Made by a program: the position numbers and the translations under genes. The notes beneath the pieces are model-generated. The model did not search any database, was not told where the DNA came from, and saw nothing but the letters and a program-made list of their open reading frames with translations. Shown here one piece after another: positions 7,240 through 60,128 of a stretch of DNA of 64,000 bases (positions are counted from its first letter, which is position 1; the number at the start of each line of letters is the position of its first letter). Location: positions 15,111,623-15,175,622 of the forward strand of contig OZ020591.1 in NCBI GenBank assembly GCA_963971535.1, in the 5' to 3' direction. Origin of the DNA: Notolepis coatsorum. Lineage: Eukaryota; Chordata; Actinopteri; Aulopiformes; Paralepididae.

Positions 7240-7449
7240 CGTGATCTAGATGGAAAGACAATGTAACATTACTGGTGAAAAGGTGATTTACCTTGGAACA
7301 CTCCTGTGCCAACTTGCTGTACTTTGCTTGCAGGTCTGCAGCCATTATTGCTGGATTATGAATAGCAATAGTGGCCTTTCCCTTTGTTACTTTCAAAAGT
7401 AATGGTTACAACAAATTACATTTAAATTATTGTATGCCCTTCTTTCTAG

Positions 7450-9584
7450 ACTCCATTGCCTTACAGCTGTGTATCTGTGAAGAGGAGGTTCCCCCTGACC
7501 AGCAGGAGAGGAGCCCCAGTCTGGACCAGGAGGAGCCAGAGCGCCTACAGATTAAAGAGGAACAGGAGGAACTCTGGATCAGTCAGGAGAGAGAGGAGTT
7601 TCCTGTCTCTGTGAAGAGTGAACATGATGAAGAGAAACCACAGTCCTCACAGCTCGGCCAAACCCAGGACACAGAGCCCCTCCAGATTAAAGAGGAACAG
7701 GAGGAACTCTGGATCAGTCAGGAGGGAGAGGAGCTTCCTGTCTCTGTGAAGAGTGAACATGATGAAGAGAAATCTCAGTCCTCACAGCTCGGCCAAACCC
7801 AGGACACAGAGCCCCTCCAGATTAAAGAGGAACAGGAGGAACTCTGGATCAGTCAGGAGGGAGAGCAGCTTCCTGTCTCTGTGAAGAGTGAACATGATGA
7901 AGAGAAACCTCAGTCCTCACAGCTCAGCCAAACCCAGGACACAGAGCCCCTCCAGATTAAAGAGGAACAGGAGGAACTCTGGATCAGTCAGGAGGGAAAG
8001 GAGCTTCCTGTCTCTGTGAAGAGTGAACATGATGAAGAGAAATCTCAGTCCTCACAGCTCGGCCAAACCCAGGACACAGAGCCCCTCCAGATTAAAGAGG
8101 AACAGGAGGAACTCTGGATCAGTCAGGAGGGAGAGCAGCTTCCTGTCTCTGTGAAGAGTGAACATGATGAAGAGAAACCTCAGTCCTCACAGCTCAGCCA
8201 AACCCAGGACACAGAGCCCCTCCAGATCAAAGAGGAACAGGAGGAATTGTGTCGAGATCTAGAGGAGGCTGATGGCTCCAAGATGACCTTACAACCTATG
8301 AAATGTGAAAATGAAGGTGAGAACACTCTGTCCTCACAACTCAGCCAAAACCGGGACCCAGAGCAGATTAAAGATGAACTAGATCAAGGGCTGGAAGAAG
8401 CTGATCTCTGCAAGATCACAGTTCACCCAGTGAAATGTGAAGATGGCCAAGAGAACGCTCTGTCCTTCCAGCCTCTTCAAACCCAAAGGGAGATAAACAG
8501 AGAAGCATACTCTTTACCCAGCACCTCAACTGAACACATGAAAACAGAACCTGAAGGAGAGGACTGTGGAGTAGCGGAACTAGCCAGTAACTTAGATCCA
8601 GCTGGTGATTTAGAACCAACTAGAGATAGCCAGCTTCTCTCTTCAGACTGTTCTCTAACTGAGACTGATGACAGTGATGATGACAGTTCTGGAGCTGAAA
8701 CTGATGACTGTGATGATGACGGTTCTGGAGCTGAGACTGATGACAGAGATGAATGGAAGGAGAGTGGAGGTCCAGGTTTGATGGCACTAAAACGAAAGAA
8801 GACACAGAAAATACAAACGTTGTCTAACAGGCCTGGATTCAGCAAGAAGAGAGATGTGAAGATGCATGTAAAAAATCATACCGGAGTGAAACCATTTGGT
8901 TGTTCTGTTTGTGGGAAAGGGTTCAGTAGGAAGGCACATCTGAAGACACACATGATGATTCATACTGGAGAGAAGCCATTTAGTTGTTCAGTTTGTGGGA
9001 AAGGGTTCAATGTCCAAACAAATCTGAAGATACACATGAGAATTCATACAGGAGAGAAGCCATTTAGCTGTTCAGTTTGTGGGAAAGGGTTCAGTGATAA
9101 AGGACATATGAAGTACCACACTAGAACTCATACTGGAGAGAAACCATTTAGTTGTTCAGTCTGTGGGAAAGGGTTCAATGTCCAAACAAATCTGAAGGGA
9201 CACATGAGGATTCATACTGGAGAGAAACCATTTAGTTGTTCCGTTTGTGGGAAAGGGTTCAGTACGAAGGCACATCTGAAGACACACATGAGAATTCATA
9301 CTGGAGAGAAGCCATTTAGTTGTTCAGTTTGTGGGAAAGGGTTCAATGTCCAAACAAATCTGAAGATACACATGAGAATTCATACAGGAGAGAAGCCATT
9401 TAGCTGTTCAGTTTGTGGGAAAGGGTTCAGGCATAAAGGACATATGAAGAAACACACTAGAACTCATACAGGAGAGAAACCATTTAGTTGTTCCGTTTGT
9501 GGGAACGGGTTCAATGATAAATCAAATATGAAGAAACACACTAGAACTCATACAGGAAAGAAACAATTTAGTTGTTCCGTTTAA
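7450..9584 (+). CDS. C2H2 zinc-finger protein, terminal exon, copy 1 (8 fingers)
   Basis: Likely a nuclear DNA-binding regulator. The exon start is placed at 7450, after a pyrimidine tract and TTCTTTCTAG, by analogy with teleost zinc-finger genes whose last exon opens with a ...EEEVPPEQQE block. Upstream exons were not found. Order: EEEVPPDQQE; five 45-residue repeats ([11 protein letters not shown]… VKSEHDEEK…) at 7545-8219; a sixth, divergent unit; an acidic SD/ETDD-rich stretch (about 8640-8750); a basic KRKKTQK segment; one degenerate finger; then eight C2H2 fingers (CxxC…HxxxH, TGEKP linkers). The frame stops four residues into a ninth finger. Contact residues (-1,2,3,6) for fingers 1-8 are RAHT, VTNI, DGHY, VTNG, TAHT, VTNI, HGHK and DSNK. 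No KRAB, SCAN or BTB domain is seen. The frame is fully open. The real N-terminus is unknown. Confidence 0.85.
7545..8219 (+). repeat. Five exact-length 135-bp coding repeats in zinc-finger copy 1
   Basis: Units start at 7545, 7680, 7815, 7950 and 8085, and a divergent sixth begins at 8220. Each encodes 45 residues with two SUMO-consensus motifs, IKEE and VKSE; the second is followed by an acidic HDEE. Units 2-3 and 4-5 form near-identical 270-bp pairs (KS/LG then KP/LS variants), so the last step looks like duplication of a dimer. Copies 2 and 3 of the gene have only one full unit plus the divergent one. Confidence 0.95.
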
Positions 9585-10096: not shown

Positions 10097-11155
10097 GTTC
10101 CCATACTAAGCAGTATACACAATAGGAACCCCATGTACTTATACTAAGCAGTATACTCAATAGGAACCCCATGTTCTCATACTAAGCAGTATACACAATA
10201 GGAACCCCATGTACTTATACTAAGCAGTATACTCAATAGGAACCCCATGTACTATTGAAGATATAATGTTTGTTTGCAATGTTTGCTGGAGCCACTTCAT
10301 CCAGACGGCACACCCCGGTCAGAGAGCGGACACAGACACAGAGAACCTTTGTAGTTTTATTTAGGATTCTGTTTAATGAGATGGTGTTTCAGAGTGGCTT
10401 CTGTAACACATAAGCAGAAACAAGGAATTATAATACATAATACATAATTAGCAGAGGTAAAGGTCATATGCATCATGCACTATCCACTGCCTGCATTAGG
10501 CCGCTAGGTGACCCATATGCATGACCACGGCTAGTCGCTACCCCGTGCCATGCCCGGCCCATGCGGCCAACCGAGCCAGCGCCAGTGCTGACATGCCAAT
10601 GGAAATATGCCATATAGCATAGCCAGCTGGCTAGCACTAGCTCAATTAGCGGCACGGACCAAACACAACACAAAGCAGCAAACCCCAAGCCATAATCATA
10701 CACACAAATCACAGCGCCCCAACAACACACAATGCAGGCTACATATGACATTTACCTAGCATAAACCACAGGCACTACATTGGAGGCTGGTGATAACTTA
10801 CTTCCTCAAGGACGCACTCTGTCTGCAAATGGAAACACAGGTGCCGGCAATTCACCACCTGTATTTAATTACCAGACTAAGGACCCTTGGGCTGTCTGGA
10901 GAGATGCCTGACTAGGAACAAGAATACCCCCTGGGCTGTCCAAAGTAATGCCTGGATAGAAATAATAATACACAGTATGGCAAAATAGTGGGGAATTTAC
11001 AACATATACTAAGCAGTATACTCAATAGGAACCCCATGTACTTATACTAAGCAGTATACCCAATATGAACCCCATGTACTTATACTAAGTAGTATACCCA
11101 ATAGGAACCCCATGTACTTATACTAAGTAGTATACCCAATAGGAACCCTTAGGAC
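10097..11155. repeat. 38-bp minisatellite, split by a solo LTR
   Basis: The unit ATACTAAGCAGTATA plus CACAATAGGAACCCC plus ATGTACTT occurs about four times at 10097-10255 and about four more times at 11005-11155. The two halves are separated by the LTR-like insert 10256-11004. The homologous array behind copy 3 is longer (57617-58430). Unit variants differ at a few positions (CAGT/TAGT, CACAA/CTCAA/CCCAA). Confidence 0.9.
10256..11004 (-). mobile_element. Probable solo LTR fossil inside the minisatellite
   Basis: The insert splits the 38-bp array and has TG…CA-type ends (TGTTGTAAATTCC and ATATCTTCA on the minus strand). An AATAAA stands near its 3' end. No internal coding region is present. 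It is about 749 bp, its family is unresolved, and no clear target duplication is seen. Because copy 3 lacks it, insertion followed the duplication or the copy-3 array was replaced. Confidence 0.45.
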
Positions 11156-11690
11156 TTATTTTTCTTTTGTGACTGATTTCTGTTTATCTTCATTCATATC
11201 AAAACACAAAGATTCTGTACCTCCTTTCTTGATTTAGTCAATAAAATATATTTTATATGCTTGTTTTGACTCATTCATTGTGAGTGTTATAATAAAAAAT
11301 TCTGCGTAGCCATTAGGACATGATATTTTAGTTAAGTTAAAAGTAGAAATACTCTACAGAAAATAGTTGCTAAATTAAACAAAAAGGTCTAAAGACCTTA
11401 ATGTTGAGTTTTTCAAATGTATTATTTTGGCACAAACCCGGTGCCATTTAGCTCCATTGTATTGCCGTGACAGCGGACTTCTCTAATGCAGATATGTCGT
11501 GCTCTAGTGGGCTTCACTCATAAGTAGTTCAAAGTAGCAGTCAGAAGACTGAGGTGTGACAGCAACAGTGTATTCCTTCAATAACTGGTGGCGCCAGAGA
11601 GCATCTGACAAAACAGAACTGGTGGGTCACGTGCTTGAAGCTCTGATCACTAGCAAGACTTCAGTGGTCAATGTTAAGAGACTTTACATT
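11156..11690 (+). other. Conserved 3' flank of zinc-finger duplicon
   Basis: There is no coding frame. The segment contains AATAAA at 11239-11244 and is repeated behind copy 3 (58431-58790). Its distal part, from CTCTACAGAAAATAG on, recurs behind copy 2 (52380-52730). It is useful as a marker of the duplicated block; its right part continues in copy 2 but not in copy 3. Confidence 0.8.
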
Positions 11691-18826: not shown

Positions 18827-18950
18827 TAACAGCAGGATGATGATGATAAGGTCCCAGCACTAAGGACCGCATGAGAGACAGAACTCTCAGCCGTGTCCAT
18901 CAGATAGAACCTGATGAAAGGCCCCGGGGAGGACCAAGATGCCTCCACCA

Positions 18951-19545
18951 AGACCCTCTGAGCAGGGCAGAAGAAGACCCTCTGAGCAGGGCAGAAGAAG
19001 ACCCTCTGAGCAGGGCAGGAGAAGACCCTCTGAGCAGGGCAGAAGACGACCCTCTGAGCAGGGCAGAAGACGACCCTCTGAGCAGGGCAGAAGAAGCCCC
19101 TCTGAGCAGGGCAGAAGAAAACCCTCTGAGCAGGGCAGAAGAAGACCCTCTGAGCAGGGCAGAAGAAGCCCCTCCGAGCAGAGCAGAAGAAGACCCTCTG
19201 AGCAGGGCAGGAGAAGACCCTCTGAGCAGGAGAAGACCCTCTGAGCAGGGCAGAAGAAGCCCCTCTGAGCAGGGCAGAAGAAGACCCTCTGAGCAGGGCA
19301 GAAGAAGCCCCTCTGAGCAGGGCAGAAGAAAACCCTCTGAGCAGGGCAGAAGAAGACCCTCTGAGCAGGGCAGAAGAAGCCCCTCTGAGCAGAGCAGAAG
19401 AAGACCCTCTGAGCAGGGCAGAAGAAGACCCTCTGAGCAGGGCAGAAGAAGCCCCTCTGAGCAGGGCAGGAGAAGACCCTCTGAGCAGAGCAGGAGAAGC
19501 CCCTCTGAGCAGGGCAGGAGAAGCCCCTCTGAGCAGGGCAGAGGA
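18951..19545. repeat. 24-bp minisatellite, about 25 units
   Basis: The unit is close to CCCTCTGAGCAGGGC plus AGAAGAAGA. As the period is a multiple of three and stops are rare, several frames on both strands remain open, e.g. repeats of RRRPSEQG. This is an arithmetic effect, not evidence of a gene. A block of six units (S-K-R-S-R-R variants) occurs twice, giving a higher-order pattern. The matching site in the copy 3 block has no array. Confidence 0.95.
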
Positions 19546-19610
19546 AGCCACCACTCCACCAGTATAGAGTGCGCTCTGATCCCTGCGGGGGGAACCTGTC
19601 CAGCCATAGC

Positions 19611-21023: not shown

Positions 21024-24000
21024 GTGGTATTAATATTGAAATGGCCTATGATGAACAATCCACGAAACGGTCCTCCTAAAGTAGAACGCCCGCAGCGTAG
21101 ACGGCAGCCACCTCAGTACTTAGAGGATTACGCTGCCAGTATACTACCTAGCCTTCTACAAACGGTAAACGCGGTAAAAGTAGAAAGTAAAATTATGTCC
21201 GACCCTATCAACCAGGATACCCCGACCACAGAGGCCCTAGTGGGTTCTAATGTAACTGACCAAGCTCACGGTGGGGACCAGGAGGGAACTGACACGACTT
21301 TACCCCCCGCCAAGACCGAAGAAGTAGTCTCCGGAGAGCTCCGGGAGGAAGACAACCCTCCAGAGATGGAACTCTGCACGGAACAAGATGAGGAGAGCGC
21401 CGAGGAGATAGAGCTCCAGGACTCCCCGCAGGAGAACGCATCCCCAACGAGTACTGCCAGGAGCGGATCACCTCAACCAGCGTCTTCCCCCAGCGAGGCG
21501 GACAAGATGCTGGCACAGGCGTTCCTCGCCAGCCTAGCAGCCTCCACAGAGCGCGATCGGCTCCAAGCACAGACGCTTAGTGAGCGCGAACATTCTACCA
21601 TGGAAAGAGAACGCATTCAAGCGCAGCAACGGAGCGACGAAGAGCGTATACGTCTGGAGATGAGACGCCTTCAGACGGAAGAGAATATGACCAGGGACCG
21701 GGCCGACGCCCAGCGCGCCGCTGCCGGTGCCCAAAGAGAAGCAGAGCGCGACATCGCTCTCAACAAGCGCGAAGCCGAGCGCGACCGACTACAAGCGCAG
21801 CTAATGGAGCAGCTGATCGCCAGGGCAACACCCCCTCCCTCCACAAGGGGAGGGACTAAAGACTCACTTCTTCAACCATTATCTGAATTAAAAAAAAATA
21901 AAAATAAAAAAAATCTAACCCTAACTAACCATACTGTCATGCACTTGTCCTAATAAACTAACCTACACTGTAGCACTCAACACTTTGATGAACATTGTTA
22001 CTCAGCTGATAGAGTTGTGCTCTTCCTGATGGCTTGTCGTACAGAACTTGTAAGTCGCTTTGGATAAAAGCGTCAGCTAAATGACTAAATGAAATGAAAT
22101 GAAATGAAATGAAGGGGTTCCAGGGCCTCGTCAAGACACGGGTCAAGGGCACCCTCCCCTAACCGATTAAGCGACCCTGAGCCCGACCACCAGAGAGAGC
22201 CTATACCCCCCTCCGAACTCCTTCCCCGACTGGTCCCAGTGAGACCCAGCTACAAGGAAGGAACGGCGTACACCGCGGAGAGGCTAAATAGACGACTACA
22301 GGATCTAGATGACCTGACAGAGGAAGAAGAGGGAGAAGAGGAGAGTCAAGCCCGACAGCAGCACAGTACTCCACAGGACCAGGAGGTCCAGTACAGCCCA
22401 GGCTATACCCCCGTGGCTCTGCGCTACAGACCCCCGACTCTATTCACGGGTGAGCATGACGCACGACCAGTCCCGAGGAATAGCACCTGGACCAGCGGGC
22501 CATGGTACCCTCCCGGTACCAGCCCACCGAGAGGCGTAAGAGGAGACTCGCCTAGGAGGCCTCTCTTCCAACGCTCACCGATGTGCCAGCCATCCACGGC
22601 GTCATACATTGGCACACCGACGTTTCCAGACTTCACCCATGAGAACCGAGCACAGTACACGGAGCTACGGATGTGCTTAGAGACAATGATGGTGGATGTA
22701 GCTGATGAACGCCACAAGTATGCTATCCTATTGAAGCACCTGAAAGTGCCCAGAGCGCACAACATAGCGCTAGCTTATGCCACCTCTACGACCCCATACA
22801 CCGCGGCTCTAGCAGCACTAGACCAAAGATATGGACGTATATGGGATTACGTAATACAAGAGATAAGGCATATTGACCGCCTACCCCCAGCAACAGACAA
22901 TCGCTCACTAGACGACCTGTCTATCAAAGTACAATCCCTGGTAGGGATGCTGGGGGCGCAACGAGAAAAGGGTATGCATGAACTATACGCAAACTCGAAT
23001 GTCGAGAGGATTTTAGAGAAGCTGCCGCCCGCCCGACAGGAGCGCTTCAGGCGGCAAAGAGACCACCGTGATCCTAACGGTCCCGAGCCATCCCTCCTAG
23101 ACCTAGCCGACTTCCTGGCGAGAGAAGTCAGCAGCCTACGGTTGGATACGTTCGTGCGGAGCACACCAAGCTCCAGAGAGGGACCTAGGAGAGCAAACGA
23201 TGGCCGAAGATCGGTGACTGTCATGCACCAATCAGAATCAGTACCAAGCAGCAAGAACCACAGTACCCCCTCGATGAAAGAGAAGTGGAAGATGGTGTGC
23301 CCGTACTGCGAAAAGGAACACTGGTTGTCACAATGTGACCTGTTCAAGAAGATGACCGCTGAAGAAGTGAGTCACTGGATAAAGTCCAACAGGCGCTGTT
23401 ACCGATGTGCGCGCAGTCACATGGCAGCCGAGTGCCGCCTCAAGAAGAGGTGTAGTCGGTGCGACGGAGCCCACCTAGATGTCCTACACGACAGTAACAG
23501 AAGAAAGCCTGCACCATCCAGCAGCACAAAGGCAAGTGTTATGTACATTGACCCCGCTAGCAGCGGGGGCGCCCAGGTGCTCTTAAAGGTGGTCCGCGTA
23601 ACACTGAGTTACCAAGATAAGGTCATGGACACTTACGCCGTCCTTGATGACGGGTCAGAGAAGACCCTTCTCCTCGCGTCCACTGCGGCCCAGCTGGGGC
23701 TGCGGGGGAGCGAAAACCAGATGACGATTCGGACAATAAGAAGAGATCTAAAGACGATAAAGGGCGAGAATGTCTCCTTCACTATCGCAGCAAGCGGGCA
23801 GCCAGAGAGACGGTATAGGATTACTAATGCTTTCACCAGCCAAGAAATAGGACTATCGCAGTACACCTACCCCATCGCCAAGCTGATGGATAAATATGTG
23901 CACCTGCGTCAACTACCTATCCCGCTCATAGACGGTGCCACCCCGACCCTGCTGATAGGCTCCGACCATGCAGACCTCATAGTCCCGATAGACCAGGTCC

Positions 24001-26284
24001 ATACAGGACCCAGAGGTTGTCCTGCAGCAGTCGAGACCCGCCTAGGATGGACATTACAAGGCCCCCTCGCTAAGTCTCTTAACCGAACAGCAGCCACTAG
24101 CTGCCTCCACTCCAGAGTGACAGAAGAAGACACCACTCTCCTGCAGCATGTCGAGAGGCTATGGACACTAGAGACAATGCCCTTTAAGAACGAAAAGAAA
24201 GACATTCGTTCTAAGGAAGATATTTACGCTATAGCCCTCCTCGAGCAAGGGACAAAGAGAGTCACAGTCAACGGAGTGATGAGATACGCAACTCCACTCC
24301 TGAGGCGAGAGGGAATGCCTACCTTTCACGCCACAAAAGAAGCGACGGAGCGGTATCTATTGAACACAGAGCGGCGCCTAGCCAGAGACCCCGCTCAAGA
24401 GACTGTGTACCGCGCTGAGATTAACAAGCGAATCACAGCGGGACACATAAAGAAAATTTACTGGCGACGTCGTGCGCTGCTCCGCGCCTCCCTGATCAAA
24501 GACGGCTTTGATCTCCGGCAGCGGGCCAGCAGCGACCCCCCAGTATTGCGCAGCCTCAACCCAGAGGACAAGCCCCTGCTGCGGTTCCTATGGAGAGAGA
24601 GGATCGGAGATGAGCACCCAGCCATCTATCAATGGGAAGTCCTCCCTTTCGGAACCACATGCAGCCCATGCTGTGCTACGTTTGCACTACAAAAACACGT
24701 CGCAGAGGACCCAGCAGCAGATGAAGAGGTCCGACAAAGTGTGACAAATAGTTTCTACGTGGACAACTGTTTACAAAGCGTCTCGACGCCAGAAGAAGCC
24801 GAGGCTCTTCTACTCAAGCTCCGCGCCTCCCTGATCAAAGGCGGCTTTGATCTCAGGCAGTGGGCCAGCAGCGACCCGCAAGTATTGCGCAGCCTCTCCC
24901 CCGAGGACAAGGCAGCGAGCAGCGACACCTGGATGGCGACCATCCCAGGAGAAGCCCAAGAAATGACACTAGGACTAGTCTGGCGCTTCAAAACAGACTC
25001 ACTCCATTATAGACACAAACCCCTGACCAAGGAGCAGGGAAGGTCGACGGCAATACCGACCACCAGACGGAGTGTATACAGAACACTTGCCAGACAATAT
25101 GACCCGTTGGGATGTATTCTACCTTACACCACAAGGTCACAGAGCTGATCATAAAGAAATACGACGAGGATGTGCACCACGCAGGGGCAGAGAGAGTCTT
25201 CGCGGAGATCAGACATCGTTATTGGATACTGCAAGGGAGAGAAGCAGTGCGGCGCTTCCAGCGAACCTGTCTAGACTGTCGTAAGTGGCGAGCCCAGCCC
25301 AGTATACCCCGGATGGCTGACCTACCTCCCTGTCGCCTCCGACTCGGCGACAAGCCTTTTCACTCCACCGGTATGGACTGTTTCGGCCCGCTGTATATAA
25401 AGAAAGGAAGAGGAACCGAGAAGCGGTGGGGTATTGTATTCAAATGCATGACCACCAGAGCGATACATATCGAACTCCTTCCAACCATGAGCACAGACTC
25501 ATTCCTTATGGCCTTCCGAAGATTCACATCACGGAAAGGAAAACCGTCTACATTATTGTCTGATCACGGGACAAACTTCAAAGGCGGAGAAAGAGAGCTG
25601 AGAGAGAGCTTCCAAGCTATGGGCCCAGAACTTAAGACCCACCTCGCTCCATCCCAGATTGACTTCCAGTTTAATCCCCCGAACGCACCTCACTTCGGTG
25701 GAACTTGGGAACGAGAAGTACGTTCTATAAAGACAGCCCTGTACGCCGTGCTTGGGGCCCAGACCGTGGCGGAAGAAGTCTTAATGACGGTCCTCACGGA
25801 GATCGAGGGAGTATTGAACTCAAAGCCCCTCGGTTACGTCTCAAGTGATGTAGCAGATGTCGACCCAGTCACCCCCAACACACTCTTGATGGGGCGGCTG
25901 GACCCCGCGCTACCCCAGACAATGTACAGGCCTGAAGAAGCGAACGGCCGAAGAATGTGGAGGTACAGTCAAGTATTGGCTGACAAGTTTTGGAACAGCT
26001 TCCTACTCCACTACCTACCGTCTCTACAGACCCGCCAGAAATGGGTGAAAGAGAGAGACAATTTGACAGAAGGAACAGTCGTCATGATTATCGACCAGTC
26101 ACTACCCCGAGCTATGTGGCCGGCTGGCCGCGTAAGCGAAGTGATCACCGGTGCCGATGGAAAGGTCCGAGCAGCTGAAGTGCTCGTCCAAGGGCGGACC
26201 TACACCCGACCCGTGGCGAGGCTAATAGAACTGCCAAGGCTCCCTGATACTATCGATGACGACCATGACCCCATGACTTTGTGA
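21024..26284 (+). pseudogene. BEL/Pao interior: gag, protease, RT remnant, integrase
   Basis: Parts recognised, as fossils: a charged coiled-coil gag N-terminal region (21024-21870); a capsid-like and zinc-knuckle region (about 22239-23500); a retropepsin-like region around the LDDGSEKT block (about 23620); an incomplete RT region (about 24300-25100); and an integrase region (25112-26284) with a GMDCFGPL start, a SDHGTNF block and an FGGTWEREV block characteristic of Pao integrases. Not a host gene. Confidence 0.85.
21880..22112 (+). repeat. Retroposon tail inserted in the BEL/Pao interior
   Basis: An A-rich start is followed by CTTGTAAGTCGCTTTGGATA and AAAGCGTCAGCTAAATGA, ending in repeated GAAAT. 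The same tail motif, opposite strand, is at 949-995. It is common at the 3' end of teleost SINE/LINE copies. Its presence inside a young LTR element shows recent activity. Confidence 0.7.
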
Positions 26285-36115: not shown

Positions 36116-36556
36116 GTGCAGCCTAGTTACTGTACTAACATGATCAGAGAGACTAGTGCAGCCTAGTTACTGTACTAACATGATCAGAGAGACTAGTGCA
36201 GCCTAGTTACTGTACTAACATGATCAGAGAGACTAGTGCAGCCTAGTTACTGTACTAACATGATCAGAGAGACTAGTGCAGCCTAGTTACTGTACTAACA
36301 TGATCAGAGAGACTAGTGCAGCCCAGTTACTGTACTAACATGATCAGAGAGACTAGTGCAGCCTAGTTACTGTACTAACATGATCAGAGAGACTAGTGCA
36401 GCCTATTTACTGTACTAACATGATCAGAGAGACTAGTGCAGCCTAGTTACTGTACTAACATGATCAGAGAGACTAGTGCAGCCTATTTACTGTACTAACA
36501 TGATCAGAGAGACTAGCGCAGCCTATAGTTACTGTACTAACATGATCAGAGAGACT
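36116..36556. repeat. 40-bp minisatellite, 11 units (left block)
   Basis: The unit GTGCAGCCTAGTTACTGTAC plus TAACATGATCAGAGAGACTA is very homogeneous; one unit is 42 bp. The array resumes at 38021-38301 after two LINE insertions. There are no spacers between units. Confidence 0.95.
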
Positions 36557-38020: not shown

Positions 38021-38301
38021 GTGCAGCCTAGTTACTGTACTAACATGATCAGAGAGACTAGTGCAGCCTAGTTACTGTACTAACATGATCAGAGAGACTA
38101 GTGCAGCCTAGTTACTGTACTAACATGATCAGAGAGACTAGTGCAGCCTAGTTACTGTACTAACATGATCAGAGAGACTAGTGCAGTCTAGTTACTGTAC
38201 TAACACATGATCAGAGAGACTAGTGCAGCCTAGTTACTGTACTAACATGGTCAGAGAGACTAGTGCAGCCTAGTTACTGTACTAACATGATCAGAGAGAC
38301 T
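38021..38301. repeat. 40-bp minisatellite, 7 units (right block)
   Basis: The same unit and phase type as the left block; one 42-bp variant (TAACACATGATC) and one ATGG variant. The original array of about 18 units was split by LINE insertion. Confidence 0.95.
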
Positions 38302-49814: not shown

Positions 49815-49993
49815 AAACCCTGAAAGGGTTAACCTTCTGTAGTGTGGCAGTGAAAGGGTTAACCTTCTGTAGTGTGGCAGTGAAAGGGTTAACCTGCTGT
49901 TGTGTGGCAGTGAAAGGGTTAACCTTCTGTGTATATTGTCTCAGTGAAAGGGTTAACCGTTTGGTAGTGCGGCAGTGAAAGGGTTAAGAGTGT
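49815..49993. repeat. 30-bp minisatellite upstream of zinc-finger copy 2
   Basis: The unit GTGAAAGGGTTAACCTTCTG plus TAGTGTGGCA occurs about six times, the last units diverging. A matching array of about five units lies upstream of copy 3 (55355-55500), so the duplicated block extends this far for copies 2 and 3. Copy 1 lacks it. Confidence 0.9.
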
Positions 49994-51003
49994 AGGGTGG
50001 ACGGTATAAACGGTATACGGTATAAACGGTATGAATTTGCTCTATGGTATGGATTTTGAGTATACCGTGTAACCGGTAGTGCAGCTCTAAAATAGCAATG
50101 ACGTCATGTAACCACAGCGCGACTATTTCACTGGCATTTGCCCCTAAAAATAGATAGAATTAGTCATAGATAATAGATATGTGCGAACTGGAAAAAGTTA
50201 TTTAGGAGGCTTCGCGCAGTGGGCGTGCCAGCCCCTACCGCACGCATGTAAACACGGGTCTAGTAGTCTAGTGGGACGGGACACGGGAGCTGTCGGCGTC
50301 TCCCTGAGCTAACGTTAGCTTAGCTACCGTTACAAAATGACCCAGTCAACTATTCACTTTTAGTTTAATACATGATGGGGCATTGTCTAACCGAACGGTA
50401 TCTAGTCGGCCAGCTACCGATAGCTCCTGACATCAACAAACGCTCCACAAAGTCTAGTACTAGAGACGTGTATGCTACCTGTTAGCTCACGTTAACACAA
50501 GTTAGTTCACCGTTCAAAACGAAATGTCCCATTGAACTAAATAATTCACTGAGGCGTTGTATTAACGTTATATATGCAGTAGCTACAGATAGCTCATGAT
50601 ATCAATGTCTTATAACACTGATTCGATGCATATTCGAGCTGAGGGCTTGCTAACGTTATAATACCAATACAATAGGGTCCAGGTGCAGCGCCGGAGAATC
50701 CTGGCCGTAGCTCTGCTCGAGGCTACTCGAGTATAGGTCCAGGTGCAGCTCCGGAGAATTCTGGCCGTAGCTGGAGGCTACTAGAGTACACACAGACAGT
50801 GGAGCTTGTTGCGTGGTGGCGATGTCTCGCAGATAATACCAGTACAAGTCTAATTATATAATATATATATTTTATAAAAAAAAATATATATATAAAATAA
50901 AAAAAAAAAAGTATCAAAAACGATGATACCGTGATATATACCGTTACCGTCTATGCTTCAAATTATACCGTGATATAAATTTTAGACCATACCGTCCACC
51001 CTA
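49994..51003. repeat. MITE with TAGGGTGGACGGTAT ends
   Basis: Inverted ends TAGGGTGGACGGTAT and ATACCGTCCACCCTA. The interior includes a 60-bp tandem duplication (GTCCAGGTGCAGCKCCGGAG at 50678 and 50738). The paralogous site upstream of copy 3 is empty, which shows insertion after the block duplicated. The target duplication is unclear. Confidence 0.75.
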
Positions 51004-51910: not shown

Positions 51911-52419
51911 ACTCCATTGCCGTACAGTTGTGTATCTGTGAAGAGGAGGTTCCCCCTGAGCAGCAGGAGAGGAGCCCCAGTCTGGTCCAGGAGGAGCCAG
52001 AGCGCCTACAGATTAAAGAGGAACAGGAGGAACTCTGGATCAGTCAGGAGGGAGAGGAGCTTCCTGTCTCTGTGAAGAGTGAACATGATGAAGAGAAACC
52101 TCAGTCCTCACAGCTCAGCCAGACCCAGGACTCAGTGCCCCTCCAGATTAAAGAGGAACAGGAGGAACTGTGTCAAGATCTAGAGGAGGCTGATGGCTCC
52201 AAGATGACCTTACAACCTATGAAATGTGAAAATGAAGGTGAGAACACTCTGTCCTCACAACTCAGCCAAAACCGGGACACAGAGCAGATTAAAGATGAAC
52301 TAGATCAAGGGCTGGAAGAAGCTGATCGCTCCAATATTACAGTAGACTCAGTGAAATGTGAAGATGGTGAAGAGAATGCTCTACAGAAAATAGTTGCTAA
52401 ATTAAACAAAAAGGTCTAA
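51911..52419 (+). pseudogene. Zinc-finger copy 2: acidic exon without fingers
   Basis: It has the same exon start as copy 1 (TTCTTTCTAG, then DSIAVQLCICEEEVPPEQQE). One full 45-residue unit with IKEE and VKSE is followed by the divergent unit ([19 protein letters not shown]) and [16 protein letters not shown]. At about 52378 the coding sequence jumps into what is 3' flank in copies 1 and 3, giving the tail LQKIVAKLNKKV*. The finger array, 3' UTR and both AATAAA signals are gone. If transcribed it would give an acidic protein with no DNA-binding domain, but with an uncertain 3' end. Confidence 0.8.
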
Positions 52420-52730
52420 AGACATTAATGTTGAGTTTTTCAAATGTATTATTTTGGCACAAACCCGGTGCCATTTAGCTCCATTGTATTGGAGTGACAG
52501 CGGACATCTCTACTGCAGATATGTCGTGCCCTAGTGGGCTTCGCTCATAAGTAGTTCAAGGTAACAGTCAGAAGACTGAGGTGTGACAGCAACAGTGTAT
52601 TCCTTCAATAACTGGTGGCGCCAGAGAGCATCTGACAAAACCTCAGAGCCTGTTTCACCACAGAACTGGTGGGTCACGTGAAGCTCTGATCCCTAGGAAG
52701 ACTTCCGTGTTCAATGTTGAAAGACGAACA
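52380..52730 (+). other. 3' flank of the duplicon behind copy 2
   Basis: It matches 11350-11690 (CTCTACAGAAAATAGTTGCT, CCAGAGAGCATCTGACAAAA, GAACTGGTGGGTCACGTG). This fixes the right-hand end of the copy 2 deletion. Non-coding. Confidence 0.85.
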
Positions 52731-55200: not shown

Positions 55201-55500
55201 AGACCAAGCCACCCATCCTGATACAAACACAGCAATACTTTGATTATGGTTTGGTTTAACGTTAACATAGAAAGTTAGCATTTTCAGTGAGATGGGGTTG
55301 CTCAAGACTACAGAGACACACTTTTCTGATGTAGTGCGGTTACCATCGGTCGTGTGATGGTAAAGGGTTAACCTTCTGTAGTGTGGCAGTGAAAGGGTTA
55401 ACCTGATGTTGTGTGGCAGTGAAAGGGTTAACCTTCTGTGTATATTGTCACAGTGAAAGGGTTAACCGTTTGGTAGTGCGGCAGTGAAAGGGTTAAGAGT
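55201..55500. repeat. 30-bp minisatellite upstream of zinc-finger copy 3
   Basis: 55201-55354 shows nothing recognised. From 55355, about five units of GGGTTAACCTTCTGTAGTGT plus GGCAGTGAAA follow, homologous to 49815-49993. The array ends 90 bp before the exon. Confidence 0.85.
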
Positions 55501-55591
55501 GTAGTGTGAAATAGTGGCCTGTCCCTTTGTTACTTTCAAAAGCAATGGTTCTAACAAATTACATTGACATTATTTTATGCCCTCCTTCTAG

Positions 55592-57102
55592 ACTCCATTG
55601 CGGTGCCCTTCTTTCTAGACTCCATGGTCTTACAGCTGTTTGTCTGTGAAGAGGAGGTTCCCCATGAGCAGGAGAGGAGCCCCAGTCTGGTCCAGGAGGA
55701 GCCAGAGCACCTACAGATTAAAGAGGAACAGGAGGAACTCTGGATCAGTCAGGAGGGAGAGGAGCTTCCTGTCTCTGTGAAGAGTGAACATGATGAAGAG
55801 AAACCTCAGTCCTCACAGCTCAGCCAAACCCAGGACACAGAGCCCCTCCAGATTAAAGAGGAACAGGAGGAACTGTGTCAAGATCTAGAGGAGGCTGATG
55901 GCTCCAAGATGACCTTACAACCTATGAAATGTGAAGATGAAGGTGAGAACACTCTGTCCTCACAACTCAGCCAAAACCGGGACCCAGAGCAGATTAAAGA
56001 TGAACTAGATCAAGGGCTGGAAGAAGCTGATCGCTCCAAGATCACAGTTCACCCAGTGAAATGTGAAGATGGTCAAGAGAACGCTCTGTCCTTCCAGCCT
56101 CTTCAAACCCAAAGGGAGAAAAACAGAGAAGCATACTCTTTACCCAGCACCTCAACTGAACACATGAAAACAGAACCTGAAGTAGAGGACTGTGGAGTAG
56201 CAGAACTAGCCAGTAACTTAGATCCAGCTGGTGATTTAGAACCAACTAGAGATAGCCAGCCTCTCTCTTCAGACTGTTCTCTAACTGAGACTGATGACAG
56301 TTCTGGAACTGAGACTGATGACGGTGATGATGACAGTTCTGGAGCTGAGACTGATGACTGTGATGATGACAGTTCTGGAACTGAGACTGATGACGGTGAT
56401 GATGACAGTTCTGGAACTGAGACCGATGATGGCGATGAATGGAAGGAGAGTGGAGGTCCAGGTTTGATGGCACTAAAACAAAAGAAGACACAGAAAATAC
56501 AAACGTTGTCTAACAGGCCTGGATTCAGCAAGAAGAGAGATGTGAAGATACACGTAAAAAATCATACCGGAGTGAAACCATTTGGTTGTTCCGTTTGTGG
56601 GAAAGGGTTCAGTAGGAAGGGAGATCTGAAGAGACACATGTTAACTCATACTGGAGAGAAACCATTTAGCTGTTCAGTTTGTGGGAAAGGGTTCAATCAG
56701 CAAACACATCTGAAGAAACACATGAGAATTCATACAGGAAAGAAACCATTTAGTTGTTTAGTTTGTGGGAAAGGGTTCAGTGATAAAGGAAATATGAAGA
56801 AACACATGATAATTCATACAGGAGAGAAACCATTTAGTTGTATAGTTTGTGGGAAAGGGTTCAATCACCAAACACATCTGAAGACACACATGAGAATTCA
56901 TACTGGAGATAAACCATTTAGCTGTTCAGTTTGTGGGAAAGGGTTCAGGCATAAAGAGAGGCAGAAGACACACATGAGAATTCACACAGGAGAGAAGCCA
57001 TTTAGCTGTTCAGTTTGTGGGAAATGGTTCAGTGATAAAGGAAATATGAAGCAACACACTAGAACTCATACAGGAGAGAAACAATTTAGTTGTTCCGTTT
57101 AA
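55592..57102 (+). CDS. C2H2 zinc-finger protein, terminal exon, copy 3 (6 fingers)
   Basis: Paralogue of copy 1, likely a nuclear DNA-binding protein. Two in-frame acceptors, CCTTCTAG (exon from 55592) and TTCTTTCTAG (exon from 55619), arise from a short tandem duplication. The protein has one full 45-residue acidic unit, the divergent unit, [33 protein letters not shown], then an ETDD/DDDSSG repeat of about five units, a basic KQKKTQK segment, a degenerate finger and six C2H2 fingers. Contact residues (-1,2,3,6) are RGDR, QTHK, DGNK, HTHT, HERT and DGNQ. Finger 5 has Gln where helix-packing Leu/Met is usual. As in copy 1, the frame stops four residues into an extra finger. AATAAA lies at 57124-57129. 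Earlier exons are not seen. Confidence 0.85.
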
Positions 57103-57600: not shown

Positions 57601-57616
57601 AAAAATTCTGTTCCCA

Positions 57617-58430
57617 TACTAAGCAGTATACACAATAGGAACCCCATGTACTTATACTAAGCAGTATACTCAATAGGAACCCCATGTTCTTATACTAAGC
57701 AGTATACACAATAGGAACCCCATGTACTATGCAGTGTACATTAGTACACTGCATAGTATTGTGTATTGTATATTATATGGTAACTCAGAACATTGTACAT
57801 ATGTCTATACCGAACACTGTGACCTCATTTTCTTCTTCTAAATTCATGCTATATTATGTTATTATGTTATTTGATACTATCTTGTCTAGCACAGTCTCTG
57901 GAGCGTAACAGTAAGAAGCATTTTGTATGAAAGTATTCTGTACTTCTGTATGACAACTATTAAAGAACTTGAACTTACTTATACTAAGCAGTATACTCAA
58001 TAGGAACCCCATGTTCTTATACTAAGCAGTATACACAATAGGAACCCCATGTACTTATACTAAGTAGTATACCCAATAGGAACCCCATGTACTTATACTA
58101 AGCAGTATACCCAATAGGAACCCCATGTACTTATACTAAGCAGTATACACAATAGGAACCCCATGTACTTATACTAAGCAGTATACTCAATAGGAACCCC
58201 ATGTTCTTATACTAAGCAGTATACTCAATAGGAACCCCATGTACTTATACTAAGCAGTATACACAATAGGAACCCCATGTACTTATACTAAGTAGTATAC
58301 TCAATAGGAACCCCATGTTCTTATACTAAGTAGTATACTCAATAGGAACCCCATGTTCTTATACTAAGCAGTATACACAATAGGAACCCCATGTTCTTAT
58401 ACTAAGCAGTATACCGAATAGGAACCCTTA
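57617..58430. repeat. 38-bp minisatellite behind copy 3, split by a LINE C tail
   Basis: About three units at 57617-57727 and about twelve at 57976-58430. It has the same unit as 10097-11155. A 248-bp family C 3' tail (57728-57975, ending TATGACAACTATTAAAGAAC) sits between. Copy 1 and copy 3 arrays thus took different insertions in the same array. Confidence 0.9.
57728..57975 (+). mobile_element. LINE family C 3' tail in the minisatellite
   Basis: It runs from ATGCAGTGTACATTAGTACA through TCTCTGGAGCGTAACAGTA to CTTGAACTT. Absent from the paralogous array behind copy 1. Confidence 0.85.
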
Positions 58431-60128
58431 GGACTTCTTTTTGTTTTGTGACTGATTTCTGTTTATCTTCATTCATATCAAACACAAAGATTCTGTACCT
58501 CCTTTCTTGATTTAGTCAATAAAATATATTTTATATGCTTGTTTTGACTCATTCATTGTGAGTGTTATAATAAAAAAATTCTGCGTAGCCATTAGGACAT
58601 GATATTTTACTTAAGTTAAAAGTAGCAATACTCTACAGAAAATAGTTGCTAAATTAAACAAAAAGGTCTAAAGACATTAATGTTGAGTTTTTCAAATGTA
58701 TTATTTTGGCACAAACCCGGTGCCATTTAGCTCCATTGTATTGGAGTGACAGCGGACTTCTCTACTGCAGATATGTCGTGCTCTAGTGGGCTTCACTGCA
58801 ATTTCTTCTCTGGAGACAGACTGGTCAAGAGTGATTTCTAGATATTTCACACTTGTTTTGGACTCTATGATGTTCCCTTCACACTGTACTGTGATGGTTT
58901 CCCTTTTCCTGAGCTTCCTTTTAGTTCCAAATAAAATGGACTCTTTCCTAAATGCAATGAGAGTTTGTTATCTATCAGCCAGTCCTTAATAACACCAGCT
59001 AGCTATATAACAATATATCATATTTAGTTATTGCCACACTAGTCTGTCGCTTGCTTGCTCTGCTGTTAACATTAGCTAGCTACCTACTACTAGGTTAGTA
59101 AAGCTCTAAAGCTAAACAAACTACAAACGTTGGACGTCTTGCTAGTAATAATCTGAGACAATTACATTTAATAAAACTGACCACAAAACATGACCCAAGC
59201 AACTTACCATTTAGTGTTTCTTTGACAGCCTGGTTTAGCGCTAACATTTCAAAGTTGAGGAGCCAGAAGGAGTAAAAAATTATTTAATAGCAAACACTTC
59301 AGGTAAACCACGCCCACATCTCAGGTAAACTACACCCATGTTTTTATTTATTCCTCCTTTTCCAAAACGCAAAATTAAGGTTATCCTATAACCCTAGTTA
59401 TATGATTACTGGCGCTTACTGCACCTATCATTCACCTAGCCACGCCCACCTCCCTAGTATATAACCAGGTGAAGTGGCCACGCCCACCTCCCTAGTATAT
59501 AACCAGGTGAAGTGGCCATGCCCACCTCCCTAGTATATAACCAGGTGAAGTGGCCACGCCCACCTCCCTAGTATATAACCAGGTGAAGTGGCCACGCCCA
59601 CCTCCCTAGTATATAACCAGGTGAAGTGGCCACGCCCACCTCCCTAGTATATAACCAGGTGAAGTGGCCACGCCCACCTCCCTAGTATATAACCAGGTGA
59701 AGTGGCCACGCCCACCTCCCTAGTATATAACCAGGTGAAGTGGCCACGCCCACCTCCCTAGTATATAACCAGGTGAAGTGGCCATGCTCACCCTTCCGAG
59801 CCTGAATTTCACACGAAAAAAGCAAGACGCTTTGCTAGTAATCATATAACTATAGGGTTATAGGATAACCTCCATTATATTTCATACTGGCTTCGCGTCT
59901 TGCTCCGCCTATTGGACTAATGGGTGGAAAGCAAATGTGAAGCCCTGATGAAATGTACCCCCTGAGGTCCCTTCAAGACCATGGAAATCGGGGAGGGTCC
60001 TAGCCCCACATTAATGAGGAGCATAAGGATAGAACACAGACACTGTGCGTAACAGGGTGCAGCTCCCTAAAATGCACAACATGAGAGTAAAACCACAGTC
60101 TACATCACACATCCCAGCTATTTACACT
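58431..60128. other. Distal duplicated block (copy 3 side)
   Basis: 58431-58790 matches 11156-11520. At GGGCTTCACTGCAATTTC it jumps to the equivalent of 17691. 58791-60128 then matches 17696-18826, with the 38-bp repeat expanded and part of the inverted-repeat spacer lost. No gene of its own. Confidence 0.85.
59440..59781. repeat. 38-bp TATA-bearing minisatellite, 9 units
   Basis: The unit CCACGCCCACCTCCCTAGTA plus TATAACCAGGTGAAGTGG repeats at exactly 38 bp from 59440. One unit has CCATGCCC. The homologous site in the copy 1 block (18409-18446) has a single unit, so the array expanded after duplication. Confidence 0.95.

Follow-up and report, generated by a model that had tools for sequence, protein, structure and literature searches.

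The locus described here raises the question of how the amplification of a short protein module bears on the function of a zinc-finger protein. Within the window, i.e., the 64-kb stretch of DNA that was analyzed, the same large exon of a C2H2 zinc-finger gene occurs three times on the plus strand, and in the first of these copies a unit encoding two psi-K-x-E motifs, which match the SUMO consensus, stands five times in tandem. The original prediction was that this array could form a multivalent SUMO platform replacing KRAB. Our own reading, to which we give about even chances and which is drawn from sequence analysis, is that the exon may provide a disordered region with multiple SUMO acceptor sites that acts as the effector of the whole family.

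Architecture of the exon and its array

Copy 1 (7450–9584, plus strand) is a large coding exon composed of an N-terminal psi-K-x-E region, an acidic linker and the zinc fingers. It is contained in an open frame that extends from 7362 to 9584 on the plus strand and presumably starts at 7450, directly behind a splice-acceptor-like sequence (ttctttctag) that ends at 7449 and is common to all three copies. The fivefold, in-frame amplification of a 135-bp unit that had been claimed for this exon is indeed present: five head-to-tail units occupy 7548–8222 of the plus strand, namely unit 1 (7548–7682; an R1 module with the motifs IKEE and VKSE), unit 2 (7683–7817), unit 3 (7818–7952), unit 4 (7953–8087) and unit 5 (8088–8222). 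The span first assigned to the array (7545–8219) identified it correctly but in a register that is off by three bases, and a tandem-repeat scan (TRF) reported 7537–8246 with 5.3 copies and 96% matches. All five units also exhibit the acidic HDEE that had been noted behind VKSE. Units 2 and 4 differ by a single base and units 3 and 5 are identical, compared with three differences between units 2 and 3 and four between units 4 and 5. Near-identical pairs of units thus exist as stated, but the true partners are 2/4 and 3/5 rather than 2/3 and 4/5, with the block of units 2 and 3 corresponding to the block of units 4 and 5; consequently, the latest duplication was presumably that of a 270-bp dimer. 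Seven sites vary across the five units, six of them amino-acid-changing, one silent and none in a motif codon, a number too small for any inference from dN/dS within the array.

The array is followed by two older, diverged repeats, R2 (8223–8363; IKEE and MKCE) and R3 (8364–8492; IKDE and VKCE), by a final psi-K-x-E motif, MKTE (8538–8549), by 2.6 copies of a 36-bp acidic repeat whose number differs among paralogues (8659–8752) and by an array of 84-bp C2H2 fingers (8876–9584), all on the plus strand. Pfam zf-C2H2 matches eight stretches in copy 1, six in copy 3 and none in copy 2. Fingers are present in 77 of 95 loci; across the 392 distinct ones, the contact positions −1, 2, 3 and 6 show entropies of 3.36, 2.42, 2.81 and 2.54 bits, as opposed to 1.12, 0.70 and 0.50 bits at positions 1, 4 and 5. 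The fingers are diversified at their DNA-contact residues and conserved in their framework.

Copy 3 (55619–57102, plus strand) contains a single unit (55714–55848), R2, R3, MKTE and fingers. Copy 2 (51911–52419, plus strand) likewise has a single unit (52009–52143) and is without fingers, its homology stopping at about 52382. Within the interval 51911–52725, the sequence past this point recurs behind copies 1 and 3 (11348–11682 and 58627–58797), as if the finger part of copy 2 had been deleted. The flank just upstream of copy 3 (55338–55508) has a 94% match 2 kb upstream of copy 2 (49827–49999), as if the upstream flank of copy 2 had gained an insertion. A 38-bp minisatellite (beginning ATACTAAGCAGTATAC) occurs downstream of copies 1 and 3 (10103–10253, 11005–11148, 57616–57728 and 57976–58427). 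Elsewhere in the window, a 24-bp unit is repeated 25 times with several frames open on both strands (18950–19547), one 40-bp unit makes up two separate arrays (36116–36556, 11 times; 38021–38301, 7 times), and the translations of long frames at 22113–26284 resemble what we take to be a Pao/BEL-type retroelement polyprotein.

Genes with a single unit are already modular, as the R1 unit is followed by R2 (IKEE...MKCE), R3 (IKDE...VKCE) and the last MKTE; in copy 3, the successive motifs are spaced by 20, 25, 24, 23, 21 and 36 aa. Four module types hold both motifs and have diverged in the remainder (the first motif of R3, where the aligner placed a gap, was assigned by eye). A 26-bp box, CAGATTAAAGAGGAACAGGAGGAACT, is common to the R1 unit and R2, and its two occurrences lie 135 bp apart in copies 2 and 3. 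The box at 55714–55739 (plus strand) in copy 3, with an exact second copy at 55849, probably seeded the unit. The amplified unit is therefore as long as the spacing of pre-existing direct repeats, and unequal exchange at this 26-bp repeat would be the simplest origin of the array. The same arrangement suits a neutral explanation, according to which unequal exchange took place among the many short direct repeats of the exon, in a disordered linker that tolerates in-frame acidic inserts, and the multiplication of motifs is a by-product: in single-unit genes, the distance between the two exact repeats is precisely that of one unit, and the differences between the units of copy 1 are mostly amino-acid-changing. 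Furthermore, when the motif region is sliced into windows of 45 residues in copy 3, 99% of the slices contain at least one motif, and 66% contain two. Since almost any slice of this region would carry a motif, the amplification of motifs alone is no evidence of selection for them.

The motifs themselves are far denser than the composition of the exon would lead one to expect. Strict motifs, defined as [VILMF]KxE, were counted in the exon upstream of the fingers, which gave 15 (copy 1), 6 (copy 2) and 7 (copy 3) and thereby reproduced the totals originally stated. Composition shuffles yielded means of 1.03, 0.51 and 0.53, respectively, and none of 20,000 shuffles attained the observed count in any of the three copies. 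With the array of copy 1 collapsed to a single unit, seven motifs remain against a shuffled mean of 0.51 (again 0 of 20,000 shuffles). In copies 1 and 3, the fingers have 32 and 26 lysines, respectively, yet not a single psi-K-x-E. Acidic residues downstream of psi-K-x-E, the feature of the negatively-charged-dependent SUMO motif (NDSM), are present as well (15 strict motifs in copy 1; acidic context judged by reading).

Among Pfam matches with E values up to 10, KRAB is absent from the N-terminal region of copy 1 (7452–8875), and no credible Pfam domain precedes the fingers. Neither a regular-expression search nor a query with a presumed first-exon sequence located a first exon within the 64-kb window, and the term “KRAB-less” therefore holds for the exon of copy 1 only. 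The five-unit stretch alone was matched by EKR (PF10371; 29.9 bits against a curated cut-off of 27, E 4.9e-7). This candidate was rejected as repeat-driven, since no single stretch passes the cut-off, the best one covers 12 residues and the score is 25.2 on the whole N-terminal region. A sequence search of the PDB (E up to 10) retrieved no relatives of the N-terminal region, and five pattern matches in viral contigs included no confirmed relative. An AlphaFold model of copy 3, based on an alignment of only three rows, has a mean pLDDT of 47 and four short helices; the putative effector stretch is probably disordered.

Unit number and unit types among the paralogues

The genome to which the window belongs is 3.42 Gb in size and, to judge from the gene type, probably that of a teleost. 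A search of this genome with the N-terminal region identified at least 150 related places with 91–95% identity, one of them copy 3; in view of 6503 first-look candidates, this number is a lower bound. Two of the 150 places show a stop inside the match, as judged by eye. With a four-unit query, copy 1 ranked first and many further arrays were found among the 180 matches listed. The open frames that bear arrays reach 1262 aa, which speaks against neutral instability.

Unit number was determined by means of the KSEHD core in 83 loci and the three window copies, which represent 78 distinct genes or fragments once seven duplicates and the frameless locus L052 are dropped. When long and short units are taken together, the core occurs once in 52 genes, twice in 8, three times in 8, four times in 4, five times in 2, and six and seven times in one gene each, and is missing from 2. 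Counting the 45-aa unit alone in 64 genes, 47 have one unit, seven have two, seven have three, and five, six and seven units are found in one gene each. As most array genes were retrieved by the unit query, neither series of counts represents frequencies. Among the best 52 of 150 matches to a finger-proximal query (50 loci together with L007 and L012; L052 and L040 were unscored, L071 and L074 are short), five loci carry two or more units (7, 5, 3, 2 and 2, the second being copy 1). Most single-unit genes contain seven motifs, and the maximum is 19. One array gene, L010, resembles copy 2 in being without its downstream part, a loss that counts against our own reading. The array of copy 1 lies at the upper end of a tendency, seen across the family, to amplify such units.

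Further unit types have been amplified, as seen in 17 loci chosen from the matches to the unit query. A block of 39–42 bp accounts for the difference between the 135-bp unit and units of 174/177 bp, and the latter form arrays in L079–L082, L084–L086, L091 and L093; units of 153 bp are found in L083 and L094, and units of 147 bp, which are of the R2 type, in L087–L090. A 75-bp unit with the core IKEEQEEEKPQSSWFNQTQDPESL is repeated at least seven times in L095 (G000 C1:261654200–261655000) and contains the first psi-K-x-E (IKEE) only. All five amplified unit types retain psi-K-x-E at least once and in most cases twice. The acidic repeat of the same exon, identified by its ETDD core, varies from one to seven copies in 67 genes, and its copy number is not correlated with the number of units (rho −0.10, p 0.43). 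A second repeat in the same exon thus varies as freely, and unit number may likewise reflect neutral instability.

Constraint on the motif residues and competing explanations

Replacement of the motif residues was first quantified in a close family of 42 single-unit genes, i.e., the 50 loci of the finger-proximal query without L035, L051 and L056 (duplicates, also multi-unit), L052 (frameless), L040, L071 and L074 (short) and L043 (multi-unit). Motif lysines are replaced in 3 of 291 codons, and motif lysines and glutamates together in 4 of 582, compared with 353 of 8927 non-motif codons before the finger linker. The predicted conservation of motif lysines relative to their neighbors thus holds against non-motif codons in general but not against the other lysines, which are replaced just as rarely (5/544, or 2/166 without the columns inside the search query), so that the motif lysines are not special in this set. 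As a control, the columns were slid along the alignment, and in 8 of 246 shifts their conservation equaled that of the motif Lys/Glu columns. Comparison of copies 1–3 revealed no replacement at motif residues, but these copies show too little divergence to be informative.

Repeated modules were compared in addition. Among 49 distinct long-type modules, neither motif lysine is replaced (0/49 each, the second with four silent changes), one motif glutamate is changed to aspartate in two, and two other lysines are replaced in six and one of 49, respectively. The filter for these modules may have used the motif glutamate for some units, and a pooled count of 182 distinct modules of four types is preferred, as its patterns leave the motif letters free. 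In the pooled count, 5 of 364 motif lysines are replaced compared with 9 of 220 others (Fisher p 0.050), and 6 of 364 motif glutamates compared with 67 of 1268 others (p 0.002), these p values being too small because the modules are related to each other; the remaining codons are replaced in 422 of 5609 cases. The ratio of replaced to silent codons differs between motif and other residues for glutamate (p 0.003) but not for lysine (p 0.14), with the same reservation. Where the psi residue is replaced, 53 of 54 cases are exchanges among I, M, V and L. Counted on trees, motif lysines and glutamates underwent 10 amino-acid changes in 16 columns and other lysines and glutamates 39 in 33, roughly a twofold but borderline difference (binomial p 0.043), and the tree-based ratio of changed to silent codons is not different between the two groups (p 0.32). 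In 45 distinct short units, the non-motif residues Q1, L9, W10, S12 and K30, among others, are equally invariant. Taken together, the alignments suggest a modest constraint on motif lysines and glutamates.

The proposal of a multivalent SUMO platform in place of KRAB consequently stands in part. It is favored by motif density, by the range of one to seven units among paralogues, by the amplification of further unit types, by motif lysines and glutamates that belong to the conserved positions and by the lack of KRAB in the exon, and it is weakened by motif lysines that are no more conserved than other lysines in the close family and by the borderline excess on the trees. Neutral instability, which the freely varying acidic repeat supports, is at odds with the lower replacement of motif lysines and glutamates relative to other lysines and glutamates and to the remaining codons, a difference that does not extend to lysine alone in the close family. 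We regard the neutral explanation as possible, if doubtful.

An unlikely alternative holds that copy 1 is non-functional as a gene, its finger exon having been copied without the first exon to a position beside another gene where it is untranscribed. Its homology to the other copies extends no farther than about 85 bp upstream of the exon, copy 2 is truncated, and the window yielded no first exon, but the query for the latter was a presumed sequence. On the minus strand directly upstream (7289–7345), a short frame, MAADLQAKYSKLAQECSK, is oriented head to head with copy 1; gt comes next. It resembles what we presume to be the N-terminus of PPP1R21, a weak match of 18 residues (7342–7289, E 0.028) that would fit the neighboring gene. 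Against this stand an open frame of 740 codons, eight finger stretches and five intact units. Very unlikely, finally, is a protein-docking or activation motif formed by acidic residues on either side of an invariant L and W within KEEQEELW, with psi-K-x-E as a mere consequence of the K/E-rich composition. In its favor, the short unit shows no variation at W10, L9 or the QEE core, and co-immunoprecipitation is reported to suggest that TRIM33 may interact with KRAB-like and FiNZ zinc-finger proteins of fish (PMC11603059), but the ELW tryptophan is missing in R2, R3 and the 153-, 147- and 75-bp units, where psi-K-x-E is kept, and the motif count far exceeds the expectation from composition.

Proposed mechanism and comparison with known systems

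In the SUMO acceptor model, the exon would encode the effector portion of a C2H2 family of very large size and would be built from modules that each place two psi-K-x-E motifs, 20–25 residues apart, among acidic residues. Provided that the genes are expressed, as we assume, several of the motif lysines would most likely be conjugated to SUMO, and the resulting SUMO cluster would recruit SIM-bearing repressors to the DNA site that is read by the fingers, a role analogous to that of KRAB in tetrapods and to that proposed for FiNZ in cyprinids. Besides SIM proteins, TRIM33, the suggested partner of KRAB-like and FiNZ proteins in fish (PMC11603059), would be a candidate reader of the modules. The array would have arisen by unequal exchange between pre-existing QIKEEQEEL boxes 135 bp apart, followed by the later duplication of the 270-bp dimer, and similar events may have amplified the other unit types in other members. 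A wider version of this model, which we consider rather unlikely, is that at least 150 zinc-finger genes use multivalent SUMO conjugation as a silencing domain whose strength is tuned by module number, alongside finger changes that choose the target. Since the SUMO consensus modules of the putative effector exon can be counted, natural paralogues with one to seven units would allow a direct test of unit number against repression and offer a natural series for the question whether SUMO acts by valency. If true, zinc-finger proteins would have a way to silence DNA without the switch used by mammals.

The progesterone receptor, Nurr1, Sp3 and FOG-2 are likewise transcription factors whose regulatory portion contains psi-K-x-E sites, known as SUMO consensus or synergy-control motifs. 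According to the available excerpts of this literature, the progesterone receptor and Nurr1 have one site each and FOG-2 has four, whereas the present family usually has seven and up to 19, arranged in tandem and variable in number among paralogues. SUMO is described in the available text to weaken repression by FOG-2 (PMC3511347), and its direction toward repression is therefore not guaranteed. The combination of psi-K-x-E and subsequent acidic residues is also that of the NDSM, as outlined in the accessible part of its description (PMC3395311).

The accessible portions of two papers on FiNZ proteins do not contain the term “SUMO” (PMC10547256; PMC11603059). Within the open-licence literature, the titles and abstract beginnings among the matches listed do not mention SUMO-motif arrays in fish zinc-finger proteins. 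In KRAB genes, the effector is conserved and the fingers evolve under positive selection. The same pattern is reported for FiNZ genes in the available part of their description, which lists the mode of repression by FiNZ proteins, and hence by expanded zinc-finger families of fish, among the open questions (PMC10547256). The present family resembles both the tetrapod KRAB-ZNFs and the cyprinid FiNZ-ZNFs, as far as the latter are covered by that text, in its very large size, its Glu-rich, acidic N-terminus and its contact-diversified fingers. It differs from the KRAB-ZNFs in that the exon of copy 1 contains no KRAB. FiNZ, compared here by its description only, is a domain of 28 aa that is encoded by a separate exon and unique to cyprinids (PMC10547256, available part). 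In contrast to both systems, the putative effector of the present family is a variable array of psi-K-x-E modules that shares one open frame with the fingers.
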